Virus record (IMG/VR): IMGVR_UViG_3300000115_000013
Location: 3,125-60,424 of that record
Length of the DNA stretch: 57,300 nucleotides
Origin: a virus
Reading direction: 5' to 3' (one strand)
Part shown: positions 1,450-52,787 of the stretch, piece by piece
Layout of the letters: each line of letters opens with the position of its first letter
How positions within the stretch are numbered: the stretch's first letter is position 1
Made by a program: the position numbers and the translations under genes
The notes under the pieces: generated by a model
Told to the model about the DNA's origin: nothing
Database searches by the model: none
Seen by the model: only the letters and a program-made list of their open reading frames with translations

Positions 1450-2844
1450 TTACTCGCTCTTTCTTAATAAACTTTTAAGTCTGTCAGTTGGATTTATTTG
1501 TGGATCAGCTGTCATATTATTTTCTGTTACGCTTTCTCCTGCTTCAATAGTTGATTTTGTTTTTAATTTTTGATATATGCTTGTAGTGTCACTATTTGGA
1601 TCATCACGTTCACTTTCATCTAAATCCTGTATCCGTAAACTATCAATATTAAACGATAAATCTAGTTTACTACCAACTCCACTACTACTACGTGTTTTCA
1701 TAAATTGTATTTGTACTCTACCACGCTCTCGCATTGGCCTGCTACTAAAGATACCAATTAAGTTATCTGCTGTATTGATCTTACTAATACCTCCAGCAAT
1801 ATGGCTATGATCAAATTCAATCTCATCAACAGCACCACGGTTTAACTGTGATGCAGTTACAAATAATATGCCCAGCTCAGTTGCTAAATTGCGCAATTCT
1901 TCACTAACAAATTTATCTTTAATAAATTGATCGCTTGGATTAACTTTAACTGTAACTGGCATCATAAGATCCAAATAGTCAACCAGTAGTGCATCAACAT
2001 GCAAGTTGTGTTGTATCTGATATTCTCTCATGTATGCTTTGATGTCGTTAACAGTAGTACCATTCTTCATTTGTATTACTTGTAGTTTACCTGCTTTCTT
2101 ACTGGCCATCTTAACTTGTAACTCAACATCGCTACTATTCTTCATTACGTCTTTGGTGCTCATGCCTGTAAGCATAGCATCCAATCTCATAGCACACAGT
2201 TCTTCACTAAGTTCTAAACTGATGTACACAACGTTTTTACCTTGCAACGCCCAGTTTAGTGCTAAGTTCTGCATAAACAAACTCTTACCACTACCACTAC
2301 CACCTGCAAAGATGTTTAATTCGCCTGGATTAAATCCACCATACAATACTCTATCAAATGTCTCCCAGCCACTACTATTCTGTCCTCTGTTGTCTTTGAT
2401 GCTTTGAATGCGTCCTGCAGGATCATCCCAATAGTTTGTACCAAAGTTCTTAGCAAGTCCAATCTCTGTTGCCGCTTTGATGATGCCTTCTACTGTACCA
2501 TACTCTTTGTTCTCTAACATATCAGCACTTTTTAGAATTGCTGCTTCCAACGCTTTGTGTCTACAGAACTGTTCAAAGTTATCCATAAACCAATTTTTAT
2601 GTTCTGTGGTTAGTTTGTCTCGCACATCAGATATTTCAACACCAGCTACGCCTTTAACTTGCTCTAGCATGGGAACATCGTTGTATTCATCTGCATGTTT
2701 TTGTATAAAATCTACTGTGTCTCTGAATTGTCTGTCAAAGTAACTGCTTTCTAAGATAGCATTACACCGCACAAACAGATCCTTGTCAGCCAATAAGAAC
2801 TCCAAGTATAACTGTTGTAGGTCTGCGCTGTAATCTTCACTCAT
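1450..2844 (-). CDS. 41: T4 gp41-like replicative DNA helicase (DnaB family)
   Basis: Hexameric 5'-3' helicase that unwinds the replication fork and works with the gp61 primase. It has 464 residues, close to T4 gp41. The N-terminal part (1-130) is helical. The RecA-like motor follows: Walker A GGSGSGKS around 181-188, then an ELS segment typical of DnaB helicases, and a Walker B-like DALLVDYLDLM. A late Gln/Asn-containing segment TASQLNRGAVD fits helicase motif H3. GGAG six bases before the ATG supports the start. It lies downstream of the primase, with a small gene between them, as a replication operon. Confidence 0.93.
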   Translation of the reverse strand: MSEDYSADLQQLYLEFLLADKDLFVRCNAILESSYFDRQFRDTVDFIQKHADEYNDVPMLEQVKGVAGVEISDVRDKLTTEHKNWFMDNFEQFCRHKALEAAILKSADMLENKEYGTVEGIIKAATEIGLAKNFGTNYWDDPAGRIQSIKDNRGQNSSGWETFDRVLYGGFNPGELNIFAGGSGSGKSLFMQNLALNWALQGKNVVYISLELSEELCAMRLDAMLTGMSTKDVMKNSSDVELQVKMASKKAGKLQVIQMKNGTTVNDIKAYMREYQIQHNLHVDALLVDYLDLMMPVTVKVNPSDQFIKDKFVSEELRNLATELGILFVTASQLNRGAVDEIEFDHSHIAGGISKINTADNLIGIFSSRPMRERGRVQIQFMKTRSSSGVGSKLDLSFNIDSLRIQDLDESERDDPNSDTTSIYQKLKTKSTIEAGESVTENNMTADPQINPTDRLKSLLRKSE

Positions 2845-3142
2845 TCATATCTCCTTGCAACTTCTTTGTGATGTATTCTTCCCGAGTATAGATCATTCGC
2901 CAAGCGGTGCCTTTAATTGGCACTGCGCCATTCATATCCATAGTTATAGCGTATTCGTAGTAAGATGTCAACCAAATAAACTTGTCGTTACCATCGCTAC
3001 GCTTTGGTAACCAAGCAAAATATTTAGTCCAACAACTTTGTAAATCAGTGTACGCACTAACATGTTTCATATCTAAATACTCTATACTATTTGCATCTTG
3101 ACTTTGCCAAGATCTTAATCTTCGTGCTACTTGTCTCGACAC
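2837..3142 (-). CDS. Conserved small protein between primase and helicase genes
   Basis: An aromatic-rich protein of 101 residues if translation starts at the GTG at 3142. That start overlaps the primase 3' end by 56 bases. An alternative ATG at 3070 would give 77 residues and no overlap. Neither start has a good Shine-Dalgarno sequence, and I prefer the longer form only weakly. It ends inside the helicase start (ATGAATGA), so it is coupled to gp41. Motifs such as TKYFAWLPKR and a C-terminal Trp/Tyr-rich part are visible, but no known domain. A role linked to the primosome is suggested by position only. Confidence 0.65.
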   Translation of the reverse strand: MSRQVARRLRSWQSQDANSIEYLDMKHVSAYTDLQSCWTKYFAWLPKRSDGNDKFIWLTSYYEYAITMDMNGAVPIKGTAWRMIYTREEYITKKLQGDMNE

Positions 3143-4103
3143 TTTCTAATACACTCTTGACTGTGAATAATCTTCCATATTTGTTTACTGCATCACATGC
3201 ATCTTTAACATCTTCCCAGGGAGGAAAACTTACAGCCCAGCCGTGTTTAATTGCTATTTCAATTGTTTCTTTACCAGCAGCGTCAAAATCTGGCAACAAC
3301 ACAACTTGTTTACCTAATTGATTAATAATAGCGCATTGTGTGTCATTAGGTGTGTTTCCAGCTAGCGCAACTCCGCCAACTTGAAGTGCATCAAGTTGTC
3401 CTTCTGTTACAATAACATATTGATGTTTTTCTTGCTCATCCAAATTATATACAAAATTACTAGGCATTTGGTTATAGTATTTTGGCATTTTATCTGGTCG
3501 ATCGTTCCCACACCATCTTGCTGTATATCCTACTATCTTTCCTTTATAATAAAATGGTAAAATTACTCTACTTGCAAAATGCATATGTGGAGACCAATAC
3601 CAATGTTCATAATGATCCAAGCCACGTTCTACTAGATAAGTGCATGCTCGGGTTAATTTATCTAACTTATCATCATTTAACTCAGCGACATCAACCTCAC
3701 CAATACGAACCGCATCCATGGGCAAATCTTTTAACTGCCAATCTAGACAAACAACTTTTTCTTTTTGTGTATTTAAAAATTGTCCAGCTATATCTGATTC
3801 TTTTTCCTGTTTAAGTATTTCAAAGTTAACACGCTGAATCTGAGCCATGTCTGTACCAAATGTTTGTAGTAATTCAGCAAGTTTATCACCAATACGTGAC
3901 CCAACACTCCAGCCAGTTTTAAAGCCACAGTTAAAACAATTATAGCTAAACTTATCTTCACTGAATATAATACCGCCACGTTTGCGCTTATCTGGACTAT
4001 GCCCACGTTTATTACACATGGTACAGTTGCCACTTATCCACCCACTAGGAGTTTGTTTCCAGCCAGACGGTATCTGTTGCTTTAAAAAAGTTAATACTTC
4101 CAT
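3087..4103 (-). CDS. 61: T4 gp61-like DNA primase
   Basis: Primase that lays RNA primers for lagging-strand synthesis with gp41. The 338-residue length matches T4 gp61. An N-terminal zinc finger has Cys27/Cys30 (CTMC) and Cys56/Cys59 (CFNC). A TOPRIM core follows with VIVTEGQLDALQ (catalytic Glu) and LLPDFDAAGKE (DxD-like acidic motif). The order zinc-binding domain then TOPRIM is that of DnaG-type primases. It heads the gp61, small protein, gp41 gene group. The 5' end lies 9 bases from the stop of the upstream virion-protein gene. Confidence 0.92.
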   Translation of the reverse strand: MEVLTFLKQQIPSGWKQTPSGWISGNCTMCNKRGHSPDKRKRGGIIFSEDKFSYNCFNCGFKTGWSVGSRIGDKLAELLQTFGTDMAQIQRVNFEILKQEKESDIAGQFLNTQKEKVVCLDWQLKDLPMDAVRIGEVDVAELNDDKLDKLTRACTYLVERGLDHYEHWYWSPHMHFASRVILPFYYKGKIVGYTARWCGNDRPDKMPKYYNQMPSNFVYNLDEQEKHQYVIVTEGQLDALQVGGVALAGNTPNDTQCAIINQLGKQVVLLPDFDAAGKETIEIAIKHGWAVSFPPWEDVKDACDAVNKYGRLFTVKSVLESVETSSTKIKILAKSRCK

Positions 4104-4112
4104 AGTTGTATT

Positions 4113-4892
4113 CTAGTTTGAATAAGTTACTTTGTCAACTGTTCCTGTATTATTTTCTGAATCAGGAGTATGAACTAATCGAACCCATGCATATCTTCCC
4201 GTCCATTGAAATAATGTATCCCCAGTAAATGAAGTTAATGTATCATTGATATTTGGAACATCAAGCCAATCCGCTGGTTGTGGACTTGGAGCTAACGTAG
4301 CTTGTACTTTTAGTACGCCAGTATAAGAAGTTGAAGAAACTACCATATTCTGGTTACCAATGGTATTAAAAGATTGAGTTGTTGAAGCAAGATCACCTCC
4401 CCAATACTCATTACCACTAGTAGCAAAAAAAGTATTTTCCACAGTAGTTCTAGCACCAGCCGCTGGATTTAATTTACTTTCTAATACATAACCAATTCTG
4501 TTATTTTGATCGCTTTGCATACTAAATGTTCTATTTGCACTATCTGTGAATGTTAATACCATATCATATAATGCAGACCCAAGTATTGATGTTTCGGCTG
4601 CGGTTAATTTTAATAAAGCTCGTCCATCTTCATAAGAAGTAATTTGTAGTGCTTTTGTAAGTACTACGACACGGCTTGTACGATGAATAATTTTTACATT
4701 TAATGTTATATTGTTAACATCAACTGGCTTTCTGTCAGATCCAATTACAAAAAATTCTATATCAGAATCATAACCTGCGTAAACTATAAAATTTTTATGA
4801 TTACTAGGTATATTATATGTCGTACCTGTTCTATTAGGGACGAATACTTCGCCTCTTTGATTATATTTGTATGCTGTTGCTTGATAACTCAT
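4113..4892 (-). CDS. Putative virion structural protein (fibre or baseplate accessory)
   Basis: About 259 residues of beta-rich, Thr/Ser/Asn-rich sequence without Cys-binding or catalytic motifs. It has a repeat-like pattern of short strands typical of phage baseplate or fibre proteins. The N-terminal part (to about residue 130) resembles the immunoglobulin-like front domain of upper baseplate proteins, but only in general character. I chose the second ATG (4892) because GGAGA lies at proper spacing from it. The first ATG at 4898 directly abuts that sequence. A late promoter octamer sits just upstream, consistent with a virion protein expressed late although it lies in a replication region. 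Confidence 0.65.
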   Translation of the reverse strand: MSYQATAYKYNQRGEVFVPNRTGTTYNIPSNHKNFIVYAGYDSDIEFFVIGSDRKPVDVNNITLNVKIIHRTSRVVVLTKALQITSYEDGRALLKLTAAETSILGSALYDMVLTFTDSANRTFSMQSDQNNRIGYVLESKLNPAAGARTTVENTFFATSGNEYWGGDLASTTQSFNTIGNQNMVVSSTSYTGVLKVQATLAPSPQPADWLDVPNINDTLTSFTGDTLFQWTGRYAWVRLVHTPDSENNTGTVDKVTYSN

Positions 4893-4908
4893 TGACATTC
4901 TCCAGTAT

Positions 4909-4916
4909 TATTTATG
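4909..4916 (-). promoter_or_regulatory. Late promoter CATAAATA
   Basis: CATAAATA on the minus strand upstream of the putative virion protein, followed by a GGAGA ribosome-binding site. It matches the T4-type late octamer. Confidence 0.6.
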
Positions 4917-4917
4917 T

Positions 4918-4925
4918 GCTAAGTA
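4918..4925 (+). promoter_or_regulatory. Late-type promoter GCTAAGTA, leaderless spacing
   Basis: GCTAAGTA followed by exactly five bases and then the ATG at 4931. With T4 late geometry, transcription would start on the A of the ATG. It overlaps a divergent late promoter on the other strand. Confidence 0.4.
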
Positions 4926-4930
4926 TTAGT

Positions 4931-5311
4931 ATGAGCCAAATACCAATAAAGTATCAACACTTATTAGACGATTTTCCATTTTTAACACTAGTTAAATATG
5001 GTGGAAATGAATATATCGGAATTATTCAAAATATTGACAATAACTTAGCTAGTATGTATGATTATAATAAAATTAAAACTCTAGAACTTAAACAAAATTT
5101 TTTAGATCTAGGAGACGAATGGTGGTGGGGGACAAATAGAATGATCCCCATTAACATTATTTTTAAATCAGCATTTGAACATTATAGGAGTTCACTAGTT
5201 ACATTTAGCGGTAAAGATTTTGAAGTTATGCACGGACCAATAATAAGTTTAAGTAACATCATACAAAAACGTATTAAACGAAGAAATATTCAGCTAGTAC
5301 GCAAACTCTGA
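4931..5311 (+). CDS. Conserved phage protein, unknown function
   Basis: A 126-residue protein with aromatic and charged character, containing GDEWWWGTNRMIPINI and a basic C-terminal tail (KRIKRRN). It resembles a conserved hypothetical family of marine T4-like phages. A longer frame from 4871 exists, but it would run into the opposite gene, and the ATG at 4931 has a late-type octamer exactly five bases upstream. It is the only plus-strand gene in this part and is convergent with the dioxygenase gene, overlapping it by 22 bases. The basic tail could bind nucleic acid; function is not known. Confidence 0.7.
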   Translation: MSQIPIKYQHLLDDFPFLTLVKYGGNEYIGIIQNIDNNLASMYDYNKIKTLELKQNFLDLGDEWWWGTNRMIPINIIFKSAFEHYRSSLVTFSGKDFEVMHGPIISLSNIIQKRIKRRNIQLVRKL

Positions 5312-6051
5312 TTCTTTTGAGGATCAACTGTTTTAAGCCGTCTAGCAGTCTGTTTTTCAGCAGCGTGTAGAAGTAATCCACGTCTAATACCATCCGATTT
5401 ATTGGGCATACTACTGTGCAAAACTCGTGGATGCCAGCATACAAAACTTCCTTTAGGTGCAGTATGTTGTTTATAATTATCCTGAAAGAATATATCAAAA
5501 TGTGCATTTTTTACATATAGGTCTTGATAATAATCATAAATGTATTTGTGTGATCCAGGAACATAACCAGTTGCACCATTATCCGGTGTGAAATCACATA
5601 GCATTACCATAAACTGTAATCCTAATAATCCTTTTGCATATTTAAATTCTTTAAATCTATACGGTGTATCAATGTGTGGTCTAATAAAGTTCATGCCAGG
5701 ATGTAACACAATAAAGTCACACATATACCATTCCCAATTATTTTCTCCAAATGCAGCATCTGCACATTTACCTAACTCAGGCTTAATAATATTGTCAATA
5801 AAATTGTTGCCCTTGGGTTCAGCTGTCCAGAAGTAAGCCCAATCAATTTCGTTATGTGGATTTTTACCTTTTTCAATTTGTTCAGAAATCTGATTCCAGC
5901 CCCACCACTTTAGATCTTTTGTATGTCCACGCTCAGGTGCAAATGTACTTGCGTATTGATTGAGTTCAGAAATACAATCTTTATCAAACACATCTTGATG
6001 TACAGTGAACCCCACATCATTGATGTCATCTACAAATCTAGTTTGATTCAT
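5290..6051 (-). CDS. Phytanoyl-CoA dioxygenase (PhyH) family 2OG-Fe(II) oxygenase
   Basis: A 253-residue non-haem iron, 2-oxoglutarate-dependent oxygenase. The facial triad is visible as HIDTP (His-X-Asp, around residues 127-129) and a distal His in HPRVLHSSMPN. An Arg for 2-oxoglutarate follows in IRRGLLLH. GYVPGSHK between them is a typical PhyH segment. Such enzymes hydroxylate small molecules, lipids or modified bases; the phage substrate is unknown. It sits two bases downstream of the mini-DnaE gene, at the end of a minus-strand series. Family call is strong; the role is open. Confidence 0.85.
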   Translation of the reverse strand: MNQTRFVDDINDVGFTVHQDVFDKDCISELNQYASTFAPERGHTKDLKWWGWNQISEQIEKGKNPHNEIDWAYFWTAEPKGNNFIDNIIKPELGKCADAAFGENNWEWYMCDFIVLHPGMNFIRPHIDTPYRFKEFKYAKGLLGLQFMVMLCDFTPDNGATGYVPGSHKYIYDYYQDLYVKNAHFDIFFQDNYKQHTAPKGSFVCWHPRVLHSSMPNKSDGIRRGLLLHAAEKQTARRLKTVDPQKNQSLRTS

Positions 6052-6052
6052 A

Positions 6053-6607
6053 TTAATATCCTAACTGTTCGCATATAAGATTTATATGCACGATAACTGC
6101 CATTGCATAACTTACTGCATGGGCTTTTTTAAAATAATAGTCATTATTTTTTGGCTTTAGCCAAACGTGTTCCATTATATACGGCCAAGGCTTGTTTGCC
6201 AGGTGTCTTTTCGCTGGTCGTATAATCGCTAGTGCTGCCGCCAATTGTTCTACCGATTGCGGCTTCAATTGTTTTAAGAGCATATCGTGCCCTGACAGAT
6301 GAAATACTTTGTCGACGAAGTCCTTGTGCTCCAGTAGTTGCCATACTGTTTCCCTTTCTATTAAATGCGTCAAGTGGTCATCATCATTGACGTCTTTATA
6401 TATACTAACATTTAACATATCAAGTTTAAAAAATCCAGCTTCGTCTGCTTTTGTGTGTTCAACAGTACACAAGCCAGTAAATGGATCTGTTGGAACATTA
6501 TGAAAGTACACACCTGTATTATGTTTTTTGTTCTTAAGCCTAGCTGGTGTGTTCCTAAGAACATCTAACGCTAACTGTCTATCTGCAAAATCAATATCAA
6601 TATCCAT
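6053..6607 (-). CDS. Miniature DnaE-like protein (DNA polymerase III alpha palm fragment)
   Basis: A 184-residue protein that reads as a shortened DnaE palm. It starts MDIDIDFADR, matching the PDxDxDF motif that carries two catalytic Asp of Pol III alpha. FKLDMLNVSIY (Asp63) matches the third catalytic Asp motif (KFDFLGLxT). VFHLSGHDMLLKQLKP then AALAIIRP matches VFQLES...LIKRLxP...ALxRP. YYFKKAHAVSYAMA near the end matches YGFNKSHxxAYA. PHP, thumb and most finger and beta-binding regions are missing. It overlaps the zinc-finger gene by one base and shares the replication gene series. Whether it polymerises, or regulates or mimics a polymerase, is unknown. It may be a family trait of marine T4-like phages rather than a recent truncation. 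Confidence 0.75.
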   Translation of the reverse strand: MDIDIDFADRQLALDVLRNTPARLKNKKHNTGVYFHNVPTDPFTGLCTVEHTKADEAGFFKLDMLNVSIYKDVNDDDHLTHLIERETVWQLLEHKDFVDKVFHLSGHDMLLKQLKPQSVEQLAAALAIIRPAKRHLANKPWPYIMEHVWLKPKNNDYYFKKAHAVSYAMAVIVHINLICEQLGY

Positions 6608-7320
6608 TAAAATTTAATTCCATCTATCATTTCTTCTACAAAATATGCATCTTTAGGATTCATTGTTCTTTTATTCCCCCAATAATCTGCATCTATACAA
6701 TTAGCAATTCTCTCGAAACATTCACTTGGCATATTACCTAGTGCGGTTTGTGCTCGTTGACTACATATTATAATCCAAGGAGATATTTTTCCACCCTCGA
6801 TCCAATCTGCAATTAAGTAACCGCTTGCACGTTCCCAAAATTCTTCAAAGTACCCAGTGGCTATAGCATACTCAACAAAACGTTCTAATGCACGTTCTAC
6901 ACTTTCACGTTTAACAAAGTCTTTGATAAACATTAAATAAAAACGTTCACTTGCCCAATCACGTAATTTAACTTCTTTATTTATTAGCCATCTAGTATAT
7001 GCTTCAATATCAATAACATTACTATTATAGCACCAGTTTCCGTATTTAATAAACGCTGTATAGTATTGGCTATCTACAAAAGACTTGTAATCTTTTCCTT
7101 TGCTTCCCATACTAATACGATAAAATAAATCAAATGCTGAAAACCCTGCAAGTGTTTCCTTATCGTCTTTTTGTTGCCAACGCCTCTTTTTCTCACAACT
7201 ATGAGCTAACATAGTTCCTTCTCTTTTAAAACTTTTATTACAGTATTCGCACTTAAATGCACCAGGAGTATTTTTTATAGATCCTGCCAACGCAACTAAC
7301 TCCTCTGCACTAATATTCAT
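6607..7320 (-). CDS. C2H2 zinc-finger phage protein
   Basis: A 237-residue protein with an N-terminal zinc finger: CEYCNKSF then LAHSCEKKRRW (residues about 24-45, Cys-Cys-His-Cys/His type). A helical, aromatic-rich domain follows with FDLFYRISMGSKGK and FIKYGNW. I recognise the layout from conserved proteins of marine T4-like phages, located beside clamp-loader and replication genes. It overlaps the upstream gene by 4 bases (ATGA) and the mini-DnaE gene by one base, so the three are likely translated together. A DNA- or RNA-binding role in replication is inferred. Confidence 0.7.
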   Translation of the reverse strand: MNISAEELVALAGSIKNTPGAFKCEYCNKSFKREGTMLAHSCEKKRRWQQKDDKETLAGFSAFDLFYRISMGSKGKDYKSFVDSQYYTAFIKYGNWCYNSNVIDIEAYTRWLINKEVKLRDWASERFYLMFIKDFVKRESVERALERFVEYAIATGYFEEFWERASGYLIADWIEGGKISPWIIICSQRAQTALGNMPSECFERIANCIDADYWGNKRTMNPKDAYFVEEMIDGIKF

Positions 7321-7787
7321 TTTTTAAAGATCTCTTTAATTTGTTTTTTGGTTAATCCCAGTTGTTCTGCTATATTTTTAAAATCAGATATTTCATTTGT
7401 GCTCACTAGTAGCTCAAGTTCATCATCGTTATATGTTGGGTATAATTCACTTAACCAATTATATAACTTACCCATTGACTGTTTCTTTTGTTTTCCAGGA
7501 GGTATCCATTTATGGTATTGTGACACCCCAAGACCAACACACTGTAACAACTTAAACTGTAATTCAGGATGATGACGTACAATATTATAATGCTTGTTTA
7601 CTAGTTCATTTACTAATGCAATATAATGAAATTCGATATCTGAATTAGAAGATTGTACTGCACTGGTCCAACGCATTAAGACAAATGGACTAATTTTTTT
7701 AACTTCTTCTTCAGTAAGACTTTCCCACCAACCTTTAACACGACAATCAATTGCCCGCATCTCTTCTTTGATAGATAGTTTACTCAT
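7317..7787 (-). CDS. 62: Putative clamp-loader small subunit (gp62-like, Phage_clamp_A type)
   Basis: A 156-residue protein. It resembles clamp-loader A subunits of T4-like marine phages: an N-terminal helical part with WWESLTEEE and FVLMRWTSAVQ, a middle LVNELVNKHYN...HPEL, then a WIPPGKQKK basic loop and a C-terminal ELLVSTNEISDF helix region. T4 gp62 has a comparable FPEC...VPRGKR arrangement. gp62 would join gp44 to load the sliding clamp gp45, but gp44 and gp45 are not in this window. The surrounding zinc-finger and mini-DnaE genes fit a replication cluster. The assignment is by pattern and needs a profile search. Confidence 0.5.
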   Translation of the reverse strand: MSKLSIKEEMRAIDCRVKGWWESLTEEEVKKISPFVLMRWTSAVQSSNSDIEFHYIALVNELVNKHYNIVRHHPELQFKLLQCVGLGVSQYHKWIPPGKQKKQSMGKLYNWLSELYPTYNDDELELLVSTNEISDFKNIAEQLGLTKKQIKEIFKK

Positions 7788-8375: not shown

Positions 8376-8879
8376 TTACCAAAGGTCTTCTGTACTCAGT
8401 ACATCAGGTACCTTGTTGGTGTCTTTTACAAAGTAGGCACATTGTGGATTGTCGCCTTCTTCAAGTGGAATTGCAAGGATATGCCCAAACTTTAGTTTGG
8501 GGAAATACCACTTGACTTCCTGATACAAGTTAACAATTTCAACTTGATCAAAGCTCGGTAGGAACCCAGTAATTGGATTAAAAACAAATGCTTTAAATCC
8601 TCTATCATTTAAGCTAGTAACTGGTAATATTTCTGGATCACCTACCATTGGGTCACATACAATTAAACTCCAATCTAATGGTATTTTAACAGTACGTTGT
8701 CCAATCTTTAAAACTGCGGCTGGGCTATTAAAACTTTCTAAGAATACCAATGGCACAAAAATATAATCAGCATTTTTTGCATCACTATAATCTAATACAC
8801 AGTAACGTATGTCGTCGATTTCTTCTGGTACGAAATCTAAATCATACATTTGATTTTCCACAGTTAGTATTTTTGTCAT
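8376..8879 (-). CDS. Conserved protein encoded after UvsW
   Basis: A 167-residue protein. Segments such as NPITGFLPSF, VEIVNLYQEVKWYFPKLK and AYFVKDTNKVPD match what I recall of the conserved hypothetical protein placed directly after UvsW in marine T4-like phages. It is mostly beta-strand with no catalytic motif. It overlaps the uvsW stop by 4 bases (ATGA). The fixed synteny suggests a function tied to recombination-dependent replication or to late transcription, but this is unproven. Confidence 0.75.
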   Translation of the reverse strand: MTKILTVENQMYDLDFVPEEIDDIRYCVLDYSDAKNADYIFVPLVFLESFNSPAAVLKIGQRTVKIPLDWSLIVCDPMVGDPEILPVTSLNDRGFKAFVFNPITGFLPSFDQVEIVNLYQEVKWYFPKLKFGHILAIPLEEGDNPQCAYFVKDTNKVPDVLSTEDLW

Positions 8880-10330
8880 TTATAATTCACCTTTTCTATA
8901 TGAAAGGGATACTTGGCTTCTCGATAAAATTTCTTTCGCTCAGTCAAATGTCTCTTGCTAAATTTTGCACTACTCGTTATATCCCAGATTTGAACACTGT
9001 CTTTATCTTGTGCTTTTCGAATACCTCTACCGATACTTTGAATTACACGAACAAAAGATTTTCCAGGTTCAAAAAGGACTAAATTAAAAATCCTAGGGAT
9101 GTTAATACCAACAGCGGCAACCCCATAGGTTGCAACGATAATTTTACCAGTTGCATCAGCTACTTCATCATATTCGTCTTTTCTATCCTTACTTTTCATA
9201 CTACCACTAATAAACACAACATCATCTCCCAGTCGTTCAACTAGTCCTTCACCTGCTTTGATTCTGTCAACTAATACAAGTGTATTTCCTGACTCGGACA
9301 TTGTTTTAATAATACCTGACATATAGTCTAATCGTTCTTTATTAGTAGTTAAGTAAGTAAGCTCACTTTGATAATCGCCATACGCTACAGTATCCTGAAG
9401 TTGTAATACATTAACTTCACATTGTGCTAGCACACCCATGTCTTGTAATTCAGCTGCACTAAGTTTATTTACCACTTCCCCCAAACTTACCTCTAAGCTC
9501 AGTCGTTCAAGTTCTGCTTTGGGTATTGTACCAGTTAACCCCCAACGTATTGGAACATTACTAAATGCACCTGTTAGTAGTTTTTTAAGTACATCTGCTT
9601 TTGCTTGGTGTACTTCGTCTACCATAACACATACTACACCTTCTGCAAATGCATGCAACCCCCAGTCTTGTTCACCATCACGGAAACGCTTTTCCATAAT
9701 GTTTAAACTTTGCCAAGTACAAATGGTATGTGTTTTACCAAACTCTTTACGGTCACCAAAGTACACACCTACATCTAAACCTAAGTTAATGTAGTCAGCT
9801 TCTGTCTGTGTTACTAGATCCTTGTTGGGCACGATAACAATACTGCGTCCGTATGCTTCAATTTTGTAACTCAGAGCCGCTGTAATTAAGGTCTTGCCTG
9901 CACCTGTGGCAATCTCTTGTAAACATTGTGGTGTTTGTAAAAACTGATTAATTATCTCAACCTGATAGTCTCTGAGTGTAATAGGCTGACCAGCCGCTGG
10001 ATGTTTATCTGGCCATACTCTATCTGAAAACAATTCTTCTGTTACTAATTCAAAAGACAAATCATGAGCTTCACGTTCGTCTTGTATTTCAATTTCATAA
10101 CCCTCATTTTGAATAATTGGCAAACACTTGGGAAGGCAACTAATAAATGTATTTCCTCCCATAGTAAAATACCCAACACAACCATCCCAACGTCCTAGTT
10201 TGTAAGCAGGAACATGTCTGGCATGTGGCAACATAAATTTAAGTTCTTTTTCTAACTTCTTACGAGTGCTGAGCTCAAGACCTTCAAACTTACAATTTAC
10301 TTCGTCTTTGATAATCAGTTTAGTTTTCAT
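8876..10330 (-). CDS. uvsW: UvsW-like RNA/DNA helicase
   Basis: Superfamily 2 helicase that in T4 unwinds R-loops and recombination intermediates and shifts replication from origins to recombination. It has 484 residues. Motif I is ATGAGKTLIT (around 141-150), motif II VDEVHQ, motif III LTGT, and motif VI QSIGRGIR. The N-terminal about 100 residues form the small UvsW-specific domain. A TATAAT hexamer ends six bases before the ATG, so its mRNA is predicted to be leaderless. Confidence 0.93.
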   Translation of the reverse strand: MKTKLIIKDEVNCKFEGLELSTRKKLEKELKFMLPHARHVPAYKLGRWDGCVGYFTMGGNTFISCLPKCLPIIQNEGYEIEIQDEREAHDLSFELVTEELFSDRVWPDKHPAAGQPITLRDYQVEIINQFLQTPQCLQEIATGAGKTLITAALSYKIEAYGRSIVIVPNKDLVTQTEADYINLGLDVGVYFGDRKEFGKTHTICTWQSLNIMEKRFRDGEQDWGLHAFAEGVVCVMVDEVHQAKADVLKKLLTGAFSNVPIRWGLTGTIPKAELERLSLEVSLGEVVNKLSAAELQDMGVLAQCEVNVLQLQDTVAYGDYQSELTYLTTNKERLDYMSGIIKTMSESGNTLVLVDRIKAGEGLVERLGDDVVFISGSMKSKDRKDEYDEVADATGKIIVATYGVAAVGINIPRIFNLVLFEPGKSFVRVIQSIGRGIRKAQDKDSVQIWDITSSAKFSKRHLTERKKFYREAKYPFHIEKVNYK

Positions 10331-16557: not shown

Positions 16558-16580
16558 TATTTAATCCATTGTTGTTGTGG

Positions 16581-16653
16581 TGCCGCAACCAAGATTCGAA
16601 CTCGGGACCTACTGATTACAAATCAGTTGCTCTACCAACTGAGCTATTGCGGC
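16581..16653 (-). tRNA. tRNA-Thr (anticodon TGT)
   Basis: A 73-base cloverleaf on the minus strand. The acceptor arm GCCGCAA pairs with TTGCGGC and the discriminator is A. The anticodon loop TTTGTAA gives TGT. The T loop is GTTCGAATC. No CCA is encoded. It is the last gene of the tRNA array in transcription order. Confidence 0.93.
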
Positions 16654-16654
16654 G

Positions 16655-16729
16655 TTATCGTTTTACTCTGCAATTAGGACAAAAATCGTTATGACCTAAT
16701 TCTGTTTTACAATCTGGACAAGTTTTCAT
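16655..16729 (-). CDS. Tiny zinc-ribbon peptide (24 aa) inside the tRNA array
   Basis: ATG at 16729 and TAA at 16655 give MKTCPDCKTELGHNDFCPNC followed by RVKR, a perfect CxxC-N-CxxC zinc ribbon. The frame fills the gap between two tRNA genes. No clear ribosome-binding site is visible. Similar short zinc ribbons are common in T4-like phages. Expression is unproven. Confidence 0.5.
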   Translation of the reverse strand: MKTCPDCKTELGHNDFCPNCRVKR

Positions 16730-16757
16730 AAAAATACTTATCCGTGGGTTAATTTGG

Positions 16758-16838
16758 TACTCGCACCCGGACTCGAACCGGGACGCCTTACGGCCACAGA
16801 TTTTAAGTCTGTTATGTCTACCATTCCATCATGCGAGC
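16758..16838 (-). tRNA. tRNA-Leu (anticodon TAA)
   Basis: An 81-base type II tRNA with a variable arm (GGCCGTAAGGC). The acceptor GCTCGCA pairs with TGCGAGT (one G-T wobble). The anticodon loop CTTAAAA gives TAA. The T arm CCCGGTTCGAGTCCGGG is perfect. Confidence 0.92.
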
Positions 16839-16844
16839 ATCTGG

Positions 16845-16931
16845 CAGTGAGGGTGGGATTCGAACCCACGGAACGCTTGCACGTTCTCCGGATTAGTAAT
16901 CCGGCGCTTTCGGCCACTCAGCCACCTCACC
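16845..16931 (-). tRNA. tRNA-Ser (anticodon reads ACT)
   Basis: An 87-base type II tRNA with acceptor GGTGAGG/CCTCACT and a discriminator G. A long variable arm (GAGAACGTGCAAGCGTTC) is typical of tRNA-Ser. The anticodon loop is TTACTAA, which gives ACT, reading AGT. Bacterial tRNA-Ser for AGY normally has GCT, so the A34 is unusual. Confidence 0.88.
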
Positions 16932-16992
16932 TTAACACTTGTAGGATTCAGGAAGGTCACTAGGTAATTACTCCTATTAATTTCCAACGCCT

Positions 16993-17043
16993 GTCGAAGC
17001 TAGATATGACTATGCATAGATTTTAACTATCTAGTCTTCCGAC
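16993..17043 (-). other. Long imperfect hairpin within the tRNA array
   Basis: GTCGAAGCTAGATA (16993-17006) pairs with 17028-17043, about 14 bp with two single-base bulges, around a loop containing CTATGCATAG. It lies in the roughly 190-base gap (16932-17124) that has no gene. It may be a processing signal or a small RNA. Confidence 0.4.
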
Positions 17044-17124
17044 GATTTTCCTACTGTACAAAGAACGTTGCAGTTTACTCTTATCAGTTTATTCCTGCGG
17101 TGTTCTCTGCACCATAAACTTTGG

Positions 17125-17195
17125 CAAAGGTGAGGAGAATCGAACTCCTGCTTCTGGTTTTGGAGACCAGCGTGATACCATTTCACCACACCCTT
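17125..17195 (-). tRNA. tRNA-Trp (anticodon CCA)
   Basis: A 71-base cloverleaf. The acceptor AAGGGTG pairs with CACCTTT (one G-T). The anticodon stem CTGGT/ACCAG has loop CTCCAAA, giving CCA. The T arm is AGGAG TTCGATT CTCCT. The discriminator is G. Confidence 0.92.
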
Positions 17196-17203
17196 ATAAT
17201 TGG

Positions 17204-17277
17204 TACTCCCCACAGGACTCGAACCTGTAACCAAAACGTTATGAGCGTTCTGCTCTAACCAATTGAGCTAGAAGAGT
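17204..17277 (-). tRNA. tRNA-Met (anticodon CAT)
   Basis: A 74-base cloverleaf. The acceptor ACTCTTC pairs with GGGGAGT using two G-T pairs. The anticodon loop is CTCATAA, giving CAT. It lacks the three G-C pairs that mark initiators, so it is an elongator Met tRNA, or an Ile tRNA if C34 is made lysidine. Confidence 0.85.
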
Positions 17278-17288
17278 ACATATTCTGG

Positions 17289-17362
17289 CGGACCCTAGAG
17301 GATTCGAACCTCTGACCTAGTGCTTAGAAGGCACTTGCTCTATCCAGCTGAGCTAAGGGACC
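17289..17362 (-). tRNA. tRNA-Arg (anticodon TCT)
   Basis: A 74-base cloverleaf with anticodon loop CTTCTAA (TCT). The acceptor GGTCCCT faces AGGGTCC with a T-T mismatch at position 3:70. The discriminator G is followed by an encoded CCA (17286-17288). Its 5' end overlaps the last 10 bases of the SGNH gene. It serves AGA codons, common in AT-rich genes. Confidence 0.9.
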
Positions 17363-42600: not shown

Positions 42601-45018
42601 GATAGTTATATTGAACATCGTCCAACGGCTCCTGGAAAACTTATGGTTAATTCAAACCATATGGAATTAAGAGCTTCTGGCGGATACAAATATATGTCAG
42701 GACGAGATTCGACTGGCTCTGGGGTAGACGAAGTTAAATTTTACTTTGGAGCTAATTCTGAAAAGCTCGCTTTATCTGCAACGGGTATTACAGTATCAGG
42801 TAACATAACTACAACAGGATATATTGCTGGACCTGCTACATTGACAATTGATCCAGCTGCGGTGGGCGACGATACTGGTACAGTTGTAATAGCAGGAGAC
42901 TTACAAGTTGATGGGACCACAACCACAGTAAACAGCGCCACACTTGACGTTGCAGATATCAATATTACTGTAGCAAAAGGAGCGGCAAACGCCGCCGCTG
43001 CTAATGGTGCAGGCCTTACTGTTGATGGGGCTAGTGCAACATTAACATATGCAAGTTCAGGAGATAATTGGGCGTTCAACAAACCATTAGACATGGGCGG
43101 TAATAATATTACCACAACAGGCCAAATGCTTTATAGTAATGTTTATAGTGCCGAAGTTGACCTGCCAAATGCTAGTACATATCATGGAATGTTTGCACAT
43201 GTTCATGGTACCGGAAAAGGATATTTTGCACATAGTGGTAACTGGATAGCATTACAAAACGAAAATGCATTGGAAGGAGATGTAGACACACATCTCAACA
43301 CAACAAGTGCTGGAACTGGACAAGTATTAGGTTGGACTGGCTCAGACTTTAACTGGGTAACGATGAGTAGTGGCTTAGGTAATATAGTAGAAGATATTAG
43401 TCCACAACTTGGCGGACCACTAGATGTAAATGGAAAAGTAATTACTAGTTCTGGTAACGGAAATATTGAAATTAAGCCTGCTGGAACAGGACGTACTGAA
43501 TTTGAAAACGAAATACAATTTTTAGGTACTAGCTATACTACTGAATGGTTATCTGTAGGACATTGGAGTTTTAGAGATGGAGTACAAGCACGTTTTGGTA
43601 ATACTGATGATTTAGTAATAAAACATGACGGATCTGATAGTTATATTGACGAGACTGGTACTGGAAATCTTATTATTAAATCGTCATTTTTAGATATTAA
43701 AGATGCAAGCAATGTGGAATTAATTTCTGCAGATGCATCTGAAGTTAGATTACGCCAAGGCGGTAATATTAAACTCAAAACAGCTTCCACTGGTGTAGAT
43801 GTTACAGGTGATGTTTCTCTAACAGGTTCCATTACATCAACTGCCGTAGGCACACCAACTATTACTAGTAGTACTGATATTGTTCTAGCGGCCAATAGTG
43901 GCAGCGGGATAGTTAATGTTAGTGGAAGTAAAATTACAAACCTAGGAACACCAACATCAACATCAGATGCTGCAACCAAAGCATATGTTGATGCAAACGC
44001 TGGCGGCGGAGCCGATCTATATGCAGTTGAAACAACAGGTTCAACAAATCCTACAGCATCTGGTACTTTGAGTATTGCCATTGGTAGTTTAGCAGAAGCA
44101 TCGGGTCTTAGATCCATTAGTATAGGCAGAGATGCAACAGCTTCGGCAACAAATAGTGTTGCTATTGGAACTGATAGTGTAGCAGGAATTTTAGGCTCTA
44201 TTGCTATACAAGGAAATATTAGCGGTAGTGGAACTACGGCTTCGATCTCAATGTTAGGAACAACAACTGCTCAAGGTGCGGTTCAAATAGGTCAAAATGG
44301 TTATGTACAAGGTCAGTATGCTACAGCGGTAGGATATAATGCTGATGTTTATAGCAGTGGTTCAAATGGTACAGCTTTGGGATATAATGCACAGGTTAAT
44401 GGTAGTGGTGCAACTGCTTTGACAAATAGCTATGCTACTGGTGCTGATAGTTTTGCGGCGGCGATAGCAAACAACAGTAATGCTTACGGTTCCATAGGTG
44501 CTAATAGTGTTGCCTTAGGATATTTGGCTAATGCTGCAGGAGACTTTTCAGTTGCCATTGGTAAAAATGCCTCTGCAACTGGTAACGATACAATTGCGTT
44601 GGGCGGTGCAACTACTCTAGTAAAAGTTGACGGAACACTTGAGGTTAGTGGATTTAAAGTTTCTGGAGATGTTGAGGAAAAGTTTACTACACTTACAGGT
44701 TCATCATCAGTCGTTACACACGACTGTTCTACAGCCGCTATATTTTATCACACAGGGGCGACAGGAGATTTTACTATAAACCTAACAAATATAAATTCTA
44801 CACAAGAATATGCAAAAGGAATAGCAGTAGTTGTAAGTCAAGGTGCTACAGCATACATGCCAACTGCATTACAAATTGGCGGGTCAGTACAGACAATTAA
44901 TTGGCAAGGTGGAAGTGCACCATCTGGTACAGATTCTGGAATAGATGTTATATCCTTTACAATACTTAATGATGGTGGAACTTATGTAGTGTTAGGTCAA
45001 TCAGTAGCATATAGTTAA
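39649..45018 (+). CDS. Large tail fibre protein with tandem repeats and YadA-like head
   Basis: A 1789-residue beta-rich fibre. It starts KRLVKGSELSYAEMDSNFTD, a fibre-attachment segment common in marine phages. Residues about 168-285 hold three 39-residue repeats (from 40153, 117-bp period). Then GDYTNLTNKPT units recur. The middle includes alternating Gly/Ser/Thr strands. Near the C-terminus, SIAIGSLAEASG and VAIGTDSVAGIL units, then ALGYNAQV, form a YadA-head-like left-handed parallel beta roll (residues about 1470-1650). It ends in a beta domain. It should bind the host surface. Perfect DNA repeats allow length change by recombination. Confidence 0.9.
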   Translation: MTITKRLVKGSELSYAEMDSNFTDLDERTVVLETANSTSSQVTTANIGSLLNVDTTGVINGQVLKYDSNANKWKPSSDLSGGGSGGGIALTDLSLIQSADSGLGSATYNSVTGQFTIAMPDLTPYAKTIQLFTTSDVDSHLNQSNPTNGYVLSWNGSDYTWVDNGVITETDPIFTASPASTITNTKITNWDTSYGWGDHSVEGYLKSETDPIFTAHAANNVTNTKITNWDTSYGWGDHSVEGYLKSETDPIFTASPASTITNTKITNWDTSYGWGDHSTAGYLTSFTETNTSLSLATNILKYTDEAGAVTNIDLSLYLDDTNLAKLTSGTINGATGIATFLRDDASSFTVDFSQLFDDTNLSRIDSATFASGTLTLTRSDTSTASTVNLDGRYLQNLATQTTDNLSEGSTNLYYTQARFNSALSTKSTTDLSEGTNLYYTDARVDARITNAGLFDGDYNSLTNLPTLFNGQFGSLTGKPTTISGYGITDAFDGDYTNLTNKPTLFDGQFSSLTNTPTTIAGYGITDALALGTTSTTALAGDTALFDGDYTNLTNKPTIPAVLTDLSISDGTNGQVLTTDGSGNFTFQAISAGGSTTLSGLTDTTIASVQQFQSLQWSGTKWVNAYPSIQHLSDIDRLNNPSNGDTLVWNALNNQYEYSQAVVSDQSLATTDDVIFNNITATNLVQANAFEGNIYDTNGNVLLDNTSGAASFGGNISSSGSSSFSGTVDFNGATINNLNLALGDLSNVDPVAPTTGHVLKWGGSQWAPGLSGDMPTSGGTFTGDVNFATGKITGVTDITTGPASGSPSINLGDGTGNFGNPIINFNAATAGVSGHITHIANGGFEIKSNSGGEYIRLQTYDSSHFTPLEVVGNVVTISQAYTLPSSDGTTGQVLQTNGAGVLSFTSLSSGGILSLADDTTPQLGGALDSNSHDVVLKGTGPYYNNNITFDASQDILHFEDGMTIRMGTGSGAADGEDFWIFHNGTDSYIEHRPTAPGKLMVNSNHMELRASGGYKYMSGRDSTGSGVDEVKFYFGANSEKLALSATGITVSGNITTTGYIAGPATLTIDPAAVGDDTGTVVIAGDLQVDGTTTTVNSATLDVADINITVAKGAANAAAANGAGLTVDGASATLTYASSGDNWAFNKPLDMGGNNITTTGQMLYSNVYSAEVDLPNASTYHGMFAHVHGTGKGYFAHSGNWIALQNENALEGDVDTHLNTTSAGTGQVLGWTGSDFNWVTMSSGLGNIVEDISPQLGGPLDVNGKVITSSGNGNIEIKPAGTGRTEFENEIQFLGTSYTTEWLSVGHWSFRDGVQARFGNTDDLVIKHDGSDSYIDETGTGNLIIKSSFLDIKDASNVELISADASEVRLRQGGNIKLKTASTGVDVTGDVSLTGSITSTAVGTPTITSSTDIVLAANSGSGIVNVSGSKITNLGTPTSTSDAATKAYVDANAGGGADLYAVETTGSTNPTASGTLSIAIGSLAEASGLRSISIGRDATASATNSVAIGTDSVAGILGSIAIQGNISGSGTTASISMLGTTTAQGAVQIGQNGYVQGQYATAVGYNADVYSSGSNGTALGYNAQVNGSGATALTNSYATGADSFAAAIANNSNAYGSIGANSVALGYLANAAGDFSVAIGKNASATGNDTIALGGATTLVKVDGTLEVSGFKVSGDVEEKFTTLTGSSSVVTHDCSTAAIFYHTGATGDFTINLTNINSTQEYAKGIAVVVSQGATAYMPTALQIGGSVQTINWQGGSAPSGTDSGIDVISFTILNDGGTYVVLGQSVAYS
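40153..40503 (+). repeat. Three tandem 117-bp repeats in the fibre gene
   Basis: Units begin at 40153, 40270 and 40387. Each encodes ETDPIFTA...NTKITNWDTSYGWGDHS. Long stretches are identical in DNA, including silent positions, so duplication is recent or maintained by recombination. Confidence 0.9.
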
Positions 45019-49957: not shown

Positions 49958-50625
49958 ACTTCTGGAAATAAACAATCTTCAATAAAATGTTTAACGTCAG
50001 ATGCATCAAGACCAAGTGATTCCATAACTTTAGGCGTATGTGGATTTTGTTTTTGATAATGACAATATCTATTTTGTCTACGTTTTATTTGATCTGCATC
50101 ATTTTTAATATTAGTGTATTTAGGTAGATGTGTAAAATACATGTCTAGATTATCTAATGCCATTGTGACAACTTGGTCCATTTCTTGTATAGTTTTAACA
50201 TTACTAACTGCTACCATATGTGGTGTAAATATAGCTTCTGCCCAAGGAGGCAGTGCTCTTTCCTTTTTCCATTCTAAATTTTTAGTAGATTCTGCAAATA
50301 AATCTATCATTGGATGTGACATTGGCCAGCTAGGGCTGTAGTCATGAAATGCTCCTGTTACTTTATTTTTACCACAAATTATATCAAATCCATATATCGG
50401 TGCCGTATTATTAAAATTAGGAAAAACACAGATATGAGTCATATACAACCCTTTTGTATCTCTTGCATCTACACTATCTATATGAGCTCTTCTAAAATGG
50501 TCGCCTTTAAAAACCCTGTTAAGCCAATCAAACTCAGGGTCATCAAATGTTTCCTCACCCAACGTTGCACATTTTTTTATTATTTGTTGCTCACACTCTA
50601 TCATTCTATCCCAAATTTCACTCAT
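49954..50625 (-). CDS. Ferredoxin-dependent bilin reductase (PcyX/PebS-like)
   Basis: A 223-residue FDBR-family reductase. [20 protein letters not shown] (residues 64-83), then [11 protein letters not shown] with Asp95, are the FDBR core. [18 protein letters not shown] and the C-terminus [33 protein letters not shown] are characteristic. Asp95 fits the catalytic Asp of PcyA/PebS; the second acidic residue lies near DADQ (176-179). These enzymes reduce biliverdin IXalpha to bilins. PcyX, described from uncultured marine phages, makes phycoerythrobilin. It overlaps the ALA synthase gene by 8 bases, so both are one operon. The exact bilin product cannot be read from sequence. Confidence 0.85.
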
Positions 50626-51808
50626 ATATTATACCTTTAAGTTTATCAGCTAAATCATTTATCATTGCATCTGTATGAAACGGAGTTGGTGCAAACCGCA
50701 ATCTTTCTGTGCCCATGTCCACTGTAGGATAATTAATTGCTTGCGCATATATATTATGATTTTCTATTAATTTATCACTTATTGACTTGCACTTTATTGG
50801 ATCATTAATCATAACTGGTACAATGTGTGTGTTATTTTCTAATACCTCGATTCCATTATTATGTAATGCTATTTTTAATTTTTTAACTATTTCTTGATGT
50901 TTGTTTCGTAATTCTATACCGTTTTCGCTACGCAAGTATTTTATGGCTGCTAATGCACCAGCACAGATTACAGGACTTATACTAGTGGTGAAAATAAATC
51001 CACTTGCTACACTACGTATCGCATCTATAGCAACACCGTCTCCTGCAATATAACCGCCTTGGCAACCAAATGCTTTTCCTAATGTTCCATTAACAAAATC
51101 AACTCTGTCTTGTAGTCCTAGTTTTTCTAGATATCCTGCACCTTGTGCTCCGTATAAACCTACAGCATGCACTTCGTCAATATATGTTATTGCATTGTAT
51201 TTGTCTGCTAAATCTAAAATAGCTTCAATTTCACTTACATACCCATCCATACTATACACACTTTCAAATACAATGCAAGGGGTACCTTTTATTGATTTTA
51301 AAATATCCTCTAATTCCTGTATATTATTATGTTGGAAAATATGTTTTGGGGAACCACTATGTCTTATACCAGCTATTAAACTAGCGTGATTTTTACTATC
51401 ACTTATAAACTCAATATTTTCTACAATTTTACTAAGTGCTATTAGGCTCCATTCATTTGCGACATATGCACTAGTATACAGTAATGCACTGTTCTTTTTA
51501 TGTAGACTAGCAATTTCATGTTCAAGTGCAACATGATAATGTGTGGTACCGCTTATATTACGTGTGCCGCCACTTCCAGCACCTGTTTGACTAAGAGCTG
51601 TATGCATCGCATCACTTACTACTTTATGTTGTCCCATACCTAAATAATCATTACTACACCAGTTTACAATATTTTTAATATTATATGGTCCATACCAAAT
51701 AGCATTAGGATAATCACCACTTTCTCTTAATATGTCATTAAAAATGCGATAATTTCCAGACTGCTTTAGTTGATCAATTTTATTTTGGAAGGTTTTTATG
51801 GGTATCAT
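50618..51808 (-). CDS. hemA: 5-aminolevulinate synthase (ALAS, HemA)
   Basis: A 396-residue PLP enzyme that condenses glycine and succinyl-CoA to 5-aminolevulinate, the first step of the C4 (Shemin) tetrapyrrole route used by Alphaproteobacteria. [37 protein letters not shown] (His141), [27 protein letters not shown] (Asp211, His214) and GTLGKAFG with Lys245 (Schiff base) are all present. The C-terminal [18 protein letters not shown] is typical of ALAS and not of KBL or BioF. No N-terminal extension exists. A late-type promoter lies upstream. It overlaps the bilin reductase gene, so ALA probably supplies haem and bilins during infection. Confidence 0.95.
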
Positions 51809-51829
51809 TTAGCACCGTTTCTTTTGTTA

Positions 51830-51837
51830 TATTTAGT
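51830..51837 (-). promoter_or_regulatory. Late-type promoter ACTAAATA for hemA
   Basis: ACTAAATA on the minus strand, 21 bases before the hemA ATG. It overlaps a divergent early-type promoter region. Confidence 0.5.
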
Positions 51838-51842
51838 TTTAA

Positions 51843-51870
51843 TTGACTTGGCCTGATTTTATGTTATAAT
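51843..51870 (+). promoter_or_regulatory. Sigma70-type promoter for the heptose operon
   Basis: TTGACT (51843-51848), 16-base spacer, TATAAT (51865-51870) on the plus strand, with AAAAGGAG before the ATG at 51891. Confidence 0.75.
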
Positions 51871-51890
51871 ATGGTAAAAGGAGTTCTAAT

Positions 51891-52787
51891 ATGCATATTG
51901 TTACAGGTGCCAGTGGATTTATTGGTAGTAATATGGTACAACATTTAAACCGTATGGGACATAATGATATTTTATGTGTTGATACATTAAACAGTGAAAA
52001 AGTAAAAAATCTCCAAGGGCTCCAGTTCATTGATTTTATAAGTCCTAGTGAATTATTAACACAACAATTGGATGATTGTACATTGTGGCATTTAGGTGCT
52101 AATAGTAAAACTAGCAGTGACGACTGGGAAAGCATTTACAATTCCAATGTGGTATATACTAGAAAGCTATTGAGTAAATTTAATGATGTAGTTTTTGCTA
52201 GTAGTGCTAGTGTGTATGGAGACAATACTGATACTTCAGAGCATCCTAATAATGAATCACCTAAAAATATGTATGCTGCTACTAAAATGATGTGTGATAA
52301 TATGATCCGTTCCTCACAAAAAGGAAAGCGTCAGAGTTGGAGATTCTTTAATGTTTATGGTGACAGAGAATCACATAAAATTAAAGTTCAACAAGCTAGT
52401 CCATACACTAACTTTACACATCAAGCAAAAACTACAGGAGTTATTAAACTATTTACTAATAGTAAAGATGTATTTCGCGACTTCATCTGTATTGACGATG
52501 TAGTGAGTATAATGTATGATGTGCATGAACGCACAGATAATAACTTTATTAGTAATTTAGGAACTGGGAAAGTGTTTAGTTTTCAGCAATGGGGAGAGTT
52601 ATTGGCTAATAAGTATAATGCAGAAATAGAATATATCGAAATGCCAGACAGCCTTAAAAATATATATCAAATGTATACATGTAGTGATAATGAAAAACTA
52701 GGACATTTGCTAGATTATATTTGGGAGGATTTACGAGTACCATATCAGTTTTTAACACCAGAAGAATATATCGAGGATAATTTATGA
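51891..52787 (+). CDS. hldD: ADP-L-glycero-D-manno-heptose 6-epimerase-like (HldD)
   Basis: A 298-residue NAD(P)-dependent epimerase. GASGFIGSN is the Rossmann loop. ASSASVYGDN and YAATK (Tyr-X-X-X-Lys) form the catalytic pair. RFFNVYGDRESHK matches the HldD-specific RYFNVYGPREGHK, and FRDFICIDDV plus YIEMPDSLKNIYQMYT match its substrate-binding end (YIPFPDKLKGRYQAFT). HldD epimerises ADP-D,D-heptose to ADP-L,D-heptose for LPS core. It overlaps hldE by 4 bases. The match is close enough to prefer HldD over other sugar epimerases. Confidence 0.9.
   Translation: MHIVTGASGFIGSNMVQHLNRMGHNDILCVDTLNSEKVKNLQGLQFIDFISPSELLTQQLDDCTLWHLGANSKTSSDDWESIYNSNVVYTRKLLSKFNDVVFASSASVYGDNTDTSEHPNNESPKNMYAATKMMCDNMIRSSQKGKRQSWRFFNVYGDRESHKIKVQQASPYTNFTHQAKTTGVIKLFTNSKDVFRDFICIDDVVSIMYDVHERTDNNFISNLGTGKVFSFQQWGELLANKYNAEIEYIEMPDSLKNIYQMYTCSDNEKLGHLLDYIWEDLRVPYQFLTPEEYIEDNL

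Follow-up and report, generated by a model that had tools for sequence, protein, structure and literature searches.

Can a protein of 184 residues work as a DNA polymerase of the replicative type, and if it lacks part of the enzyme, where is the rest? The question is raised by an open reading frame (ORF) in a 57,300-nucleotide stretch of viral DNA, referred to below as the window (positions 3,125 to 60,424 of IMG/VR record IMGVR_UViG_3300000115_000013, a fragment of 74,075 bases). This ORF, called B here, was described in a first-pass annotation as a miniature catalytic palm of DNA polymerase III (Pol III) alpha, with several possible roles: a tiny polymerase or terminal transferase, a domain supplied in trans, or a decoy for host Pol III subunits. 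We find that B is homologous to the rear part of the Pol III alpha (DnaE/PolC) catalytic core, that the front part is encoded by a separate gene, A, in related phages, and that the window protein is a member of an already described family of split Pol III. The option of a domain supplied in trans has therefore turned out to be the best of those proposed, since the front half of the palm is a separate gene.

B is a conserved homologue of the Pol III alpha core

B starts at an ATG at position 6607 that shares bases with the stop codon of the ORF upstream, and its product begins with MDIDIDF. The protein falls into PHROGs family phrog_11778 'DNA polymerase' (E 4e-57). Relatives were detected by tblastn in 63 of 50,697 phage records, with at least 80% query coverage in all 63. 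Hosts among the matches listed include Pseudomonas, Klebsiella, Erwinia, Salmonella, Escherichia, Xanthomonas, Agrobacterium and others, the phages being jumbo phages or short records of such phages. A further 145 viral-contig stretches carry B relatives, the best 80 of which were kept for analysis. B is thus a real, conserved ORF. Pfam and single-sequence searches were not enough: the Pfam family DNA_pol3_finger scored 18.3 bits, below its cut-off of 22, and a Protein Data Bank (PDB) search with B alone returned one match, unrelated, with an E-value of 0.27. Profile and fold comparisons were therefore needed.

These are best described for B together with A. In profile searches against the PDB, all 9 matches of A and 7 of the 8 of B were to Pol III alpha, though weakly (best E-values 0.01 and 0.016, respectively). 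AlphaFold2 models, each of one chain and built on alignments of viral-contig sequences only, reached a predicted local distance difference test (pLDDT) of 85.3 for A and 91.2 for B. In fold ranking, the first 11 rows for A and the first 14 for B were all C-family polymerases, the next row following at Z 2.6 and 3.5, respectively. The model of B aligns over its full length to Pol III alpha structures, which bears out the palm topology expected of it. On E. coli alpha (2hnh) the two proteins tile one after the other, A residues 64-169 onto 272-393 and B residues 1-184 onto 401-781. The same was observed with M. tuberculosis (A onto 303-413, B onto 420-808), Taq (295-455 and 462-838) and PolC (817-964 and 971-1301). 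Residues 1-63 of A gave Z of 2-3.5 to Rossmann-type folds, too weak for naming this N-terminal part.

Residue mapping with MAFFT placed Asp2, Asp4, Asp6, Lys61, Asp63, Arg130 and His163 of B on E. coli D401, D403, D405, K553, D555, R639 and H760, and the GxGRGS motif of A on residues 359-364 (G359/G361/R362/G363/S364). The motifs first named for B, namely Asp2/4/6, K61-L-D63, I129-R-P131 and F159KKAHAVSY167, were all found and in DnaE order. The description as a catalytic palm holds for the relationship to DnaE and fails for completeness, the GRGS segment (E. coli 359-364) being missing from B. Similarly, the reported loss of PHP, thumb and fingers was right for the first two, and the fingers have lost their middle while both ends are kept. 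The PHP domain is absent from both chains. The C-family set of Asp triad, GRGS and fingers His is complete only when A and B are combined. That B by itself is a complete tiny polymerase is hence very improbable to us: all three catalytic Asp lie within it and its single-chain model is a confident one, but the GRGS segment of the palm lies in A, which 16 of 16 cultured phages encode as a conserved protein of its own.

The partner gene A and the position of the cut

A was recognised by scanning whole genomes with PF07733, the Pol III alpha family. In 6 of 8 records this profile matched a second small protein at profile positions ~18-101, the GRGS-bearing segment directly before the Asp motif. 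It is best seen in a 107,580-base contig, the twin contig, which is 99.4% identical to the window across 11.9 kb at the window's start, B included. The twin-contig A has 169 residues, matches PF07733 with 40 bits over positions 20-94 and also matches phrog_11127 'DNA polymerase'. It lies at 43423-43929, B at 98010-98555, and 54 kb separate the two. Neither the window nor the two end stretches of its source record, a fragment, yielded A. When a profile of A was run on 12 further cultured phages, all 12 proved to have it, and the cultured jumbo phages examined carried both halves in 16 of 16 cases. Among 21 virus contigs longer than 100 kb (10 picked via B and 11 via A), 19 carried B, 18 carried A and 16 carried both. 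Contigs of at least 200 kb had A and B together in 13 of 13 cases, and the five contigs with a single half were fragments of 101-164 kb.

The joint between the two proteins is sharply defined. Of 92 complete distinct A ORFs, 90 stop 1-3 residues past an EFL-type motif. B opens at DIDID, and its homologues have short, variable N-terminal extensions only. As judged from these sequences, the cut falls, in DnaE terms, between FERFLN and PDxDxDF. A and B were separate proteins, with the joint kept, in 20 of 20 paired genomes. No intein sequence fits at this joint, and the end of A so soon after the EFL-type motif leaves no room for a split intein. This is in contrast to the intein-joined DnaE of cyanobacteria. 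Many B genes are currently annotated as 'hypothetical protein' and A genes as 'DNA polymerase III alpha'; the assignment to A and B corrects these annotations.

Two phage DnaE loci bear on the place of the cut. Cellulophaga phage phiST has the same joint (gp044 and gp045), PF07733 positions 4-98 and 100-260 being matched in successive ORFs; its DnaE differs in being full-size, with PHP, fingers and the helix-hairpin-helix (HhH) region, and in lying in adjacent genes, and close kinship to A and B is not shown. The phiST ORFs (locus L266, 3358-6958) meet at FERFLN / PDIDTDF, and the first carries ~55 extra residues after the joint without a Pfam match. Pseudomonas phage PA5 (locus L268, 3718-6824) has a DnaE annotated as a pair of overlapping ORFs, with the break around the thumb. 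The first of these looks out of frame at its end, and a frameshift is possible.

Active-site conservation and a proposed two-piece polymerase

Conservation of B was counted over 99 distinct sequences, the denominators being the rows that cover the residue. Asp2, Asp4 and Asp6 were found in 98/98 rows, Asp63 in 99/99 and the steric-gate His in 97/97, so that the acidic residues are indeed conserved in homologues; of 99 distinct B ORFs, 98 have the DxDxD motif as such. Of 93 distinct A ORFs, 92 have GxGRGS, and the remaining one is truncated by a contig end. The A profile also picks up PA5 and other DnaE loci, and for this reason 5 DnaE reference loci were removed from the initial 98 rows and the count was repeated. 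B is under purifying selection, with a median ratio of nonsynonymous to synonymous rates (dN/dS) of 0.12; this was taken from 150 pairs that are not independent of one another and have a dS of at most 1.5. The invariant catalytic residues and a dN/dS of about 0.12 support predicted catalysis over decay. Distances of A and B were correlated (0.71 in 20 genomes, with 0 of 2000 permutations as high); this is expected of any two vertically inherited genes, and the correlation was therefore not taken as evidence of contact.

Our preferred reading, held with moderate confidence, is that B is probably one of two subunits, the C-terminal one, of a C-family core that lacks thumb and PHP and serves short-patch synthesis beside a family B replicase. 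Within it, the assembly of A and B into one active site is well supported and catalysis, predicted from the retained residues, is probable. Heterodimer formation, preference for deoxynucleotides, the short-patch role and clamp dependence are what we infer from these. A and B would fold onto each other and rebuild the palm as in a continuous DnaE, most likely as unspliced chains. A would supply the GRGS helix gripping the triphosphate of the incoming nucleotide. B would bring the three aspartates binding two metals, counterparts of K553 and R639, and its last helix, which belongs to the fingers, bears the steric gate and would be placed over the nucleotide sugar. H760 has been proposed as the steric gate of Pol III alpha in the accessible part of one report (PMC8485763), and its retention hints at deoxynucleotides as substrate. 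The assembled site would then most likely extend primers by short patches of deoxynucleotides at the phage fork, candidate tasks next to the family B replicase being primer hand-off, gap filling and bypass. With no thumb, A-B should be distributive and need the clamp, the zinc-finger protein encoded upstream of B or the primase-helicase to hold the DNA; clamp and primase-helicase may assist it in this way.

Several observations weigh against such an enzyme. Foldseek E-values were weak (0.0013 for B and 0.044 for A). Essentially nothing corresponds to the E. coli thumb (433-508) or mid-fingers (644-738), and the grip on primer-template must therefore come from elsewhere. R390 of the E. coli FERFL motif is replaced by Glu in A. 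A family B polymerase was found in 20 of 20 genomes of relatives, so that bulk replication has no need of A-B; neither the 74-kb record of the window nor the 107-kb twin contig, both fragments, showed one. Finally, the adjacent gene at 8376-8879, the opposite-strand ORF downstream of B and gp32 match 59, 58 and 61 phage records, compared with 63 for B. Since the genes of this module all match about 60 records, co-occurrence of A and B largely reflects membership in one phage clade.

The same losses give some weight to a heterodimer without catalysis, a structural replisome adaptor joining, for example, clamp loader, primase-helicase and family B polymerase. The missing thumb and mid-fingers, the position of both genes within replisome clusters and the full replicase in 20 of 20 genomes would all suit an adaptor. 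Such a protein, however, needs neither the GxGRGS of A nor the catalytic Asp and steric-gate His of B, conserved at the counts given above, and we regard this alternative as unlikely. An active nucleotidyltransferase that is not template-directed, either a terminal transferase or an enzyme tagging RNA, protein or a small molecule, would accord with the pol-beta nucleotidyltransferase fold of the palm and with the loss of the thumb and of much of the fingers, the parts holding primer and template. Retention of the fingers O-helix with its sugar-sensing His760 equivalent and the location of A and B among replication genes speak against it, making it quite doubtful.

The decoy or inhibitor of host Pol III is in our estimation hardly credible. 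B is small, DnaE-like and carried by lytic phages, as a decoy might be. In DnaE, contacts with host partners are made by PHP with epsilon, by the clamp-binding motif and by the OB and tau-binding C-terminus. These parts are not in B, nor in A; PHP and HHH_6 were detected in 0 of 20 genomes of relatives, whereas control genomes were positive in 14/14 and 11/14 cases, respectively. Nor would a decoy explain why the protein is divided into two conserved halves that keep the active site intact, and the hosts are diverse.

A bolder version of the two-piece polymerase can be conceived: an active heterodimer of ~350 residues, the smallest known C-family polymerase, taking over RNA primers in the manner of Pol alpha or filling gaps at a fork served by a family B replicase, the zinc-finger protein joining it as third subunit in place of the lost thumb. 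We consider this version speculative, with a small chance of being correct.

If A and B act as one enzyme, a replicative-type active site is divisible in the middle of its catalytic domain, minus the thumb and half of the fingers. The split site would then have been retained across a wide range of large phages already owning a complete replicase. It would offer the smallest C-family polymerase for study and a phage fork with two unrelated polymerase families.

Gene neighbourhood, origin and related systems

Features of the window are collected in Table 1. Neighbour tallies refer to viral loci with enough flanking sequence, near-identical contigs being counted too. Both A and B are placed in replisome gene clusters. 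B comes after uvsW and small genes and precedes primase and helicase. In CBB, Atu_ph07 and Paride, as in the twin contig, a clamp loader gene follows A within ~3 kb, and 52 of 54 viral A loci also have it after A. A beside the clamp loader and B beside the primase-helicase genes fit the need for help in holding DNA. In XacN1 and RAS14, genes other than primase-helicase follow B.

Table 1. Gene B, its conserved motifs and its neighbours in the window
Feature	Position	Strand	Support or occurrence
B, C-terminal half of split minimal Pol III alpha (rear palm and both fingers ends), 184 residues	6053..6607	-	ORF, homology, model, residue mapping
DIDID, Asp2/Asp4/Asp6 = E. coli DnaE D401/D403/D405, right after start codon	6590..6604	-	98/98 distinct covering rows
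KLDML, Lys61 and Asp63 = K553 and D555 (third catalytic Asp)	6413..6427	-	99/99 distinct rows
IRP, Arg130-Pro131 = R639-P640	6215..6223	-	Arg130 in 97/97 covering rows
FKKAHAVSY, His163 = H760, proposed steric gate	6107..6133	-	97/97 covering rows
C2HC zinc-finger protein (phrog_11058), stop overlaps ATG of B	6607..7320	-	next upstream family in 97/97 viral B loci
ORF, phrog_11637 (unknown function), conserved downstream of B	4871..5311	+	86/86 viral B loci
UvsW-type helicase, upstream of B	8876..10330	-	47/54 viral B loci
DNA primase (gp61-type), downstream of B	3087..4103	-	49/50 viral B loci
DnaB-like replicative helicase (gp41-type), downstream of B	1450..2844	-	43/44 viral B loci

The zinc-finger neighbour was correctly recognised at first pass: its ligands Cys24, Cys27, His40 and Cys42 are invariant in 86 of 86 distinct homologues. 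It is a possible partner of B. Adjacency is not universal, the gene lying ~10-12 kb from B and nearer to A in XacN1, CM1 and RAS14. The protein matches 61 of 50,697 phage records and is confined, like B, to one phage clade. Its co-occurrence with B was rejected as a specific link, the counts of other module genes (59, 58 and 61 records) being similar and indicating clade membership. The gp62-like neighbour also reported, which we took to be the ORF at 7317-7787, could not be upheld, as it belongs to a family of unknown function only and a single-sequence PDB search gave no clamp-loader match. A DnaQ-type proofreading partner was considered as obligatory and rejected, the RNase_T family being present in only 14 of 20 genomes.

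A phytanoyl-CoA dioxygenase-like gene (PF05721, 7e-20) lies at 5290-6051, between B and the opposite-strand ORF; its homologues follow B in 15 of 86 viral loci, which points to a variable insertion. Between A and the clamp loader, a small ORF (locus L120, 8129-8452) may, by eye, be a gp31-type co-chaperonin; its CBB and Atu_ph07 counterparts are annotated 'head morphogenesis'.

To place the split proteins among C-family polymerases, we built a tree from 20 concatenated A+B sequences, 9 DnaE and 1 PolC, leaving out the DnaE reference PA5. The A+B sequences were monophyletic with support of 100/100, on a branch of 2.57, and XacN1 and RAS14 formed a pair on a long branch of their own. The neighbour of the clade was another long branch, VPE25 (92/93), a placement that the tree program flagged as a possible artefact and that was not used. 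The branch of the clade is too long for the tree to decide between an ancient and a reduced origin.

A split minimal Pol III alpha, encoded by distant genes in group 2.2 jumbo phages, was described on computational grounds by Iyer et al. in 2021 (PMC7824862). In the text of that article available to us, the split enzyme is suggested to work together with the family B polymerase or in repair, and it is read as a model of ancestral Pol III. The system as given there shares with ours two distant genes, a family B polymerase alongside and no other Pol III domains. Atu_ph07, one of the group 2.2 phages, encodes a homologue of the window's B; the window member differs in coming from an uncultured phage. 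The present analysis places the cut within a few residues, maps the deletions and H760, counts conservation and locates A by the clamp loader; some of this may already be in the figures of Iyer et al. In the accessible portions of the CBB and Atu_ph07 papers, the sole Pol III alpha protein mentioned is, by its position, A. In the open-access literature, Iyer et al. was the sole account of the split that we found, and no experimental follow-up of the split enzyme turned up, most subscription journals lying outside this scope.

With bacterial DnaE and PolC, A-B shares the palm fold, GRGS and the equivalents of D401/D403/D555, K553, R639 and H760. It differs from E. coli DnaE in lacking PHP, thumb, mid-fingers and HhH, and in consisting of two chains with ~350 residues in total compared with 1160. 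A functional precedent is PolX of African swine fever virus, another viral polymerase cut to the nucleotidyltransferase fold and one subdomain, and active in repair according to the part of the source available (PMC11646218). PolX belongs to the X family, is a single chain and comes from an unrelated host and virus, so that the precedent is functional only.

Elsewhere in the window, six transfer RNA genes (Thr, Leu, Ser, Trp, Met, Arg) are clustered at 16578-17362. At 50618-54287, inspection by eye suggests ORFs for an ALAS-like aminotransferase, a sugar-nucleotide epimerase, a heptose kinase/adenylyltransferase and a cupin; a hydrolase-like ORF comes next, and the set possibly forms a sugar pathway.
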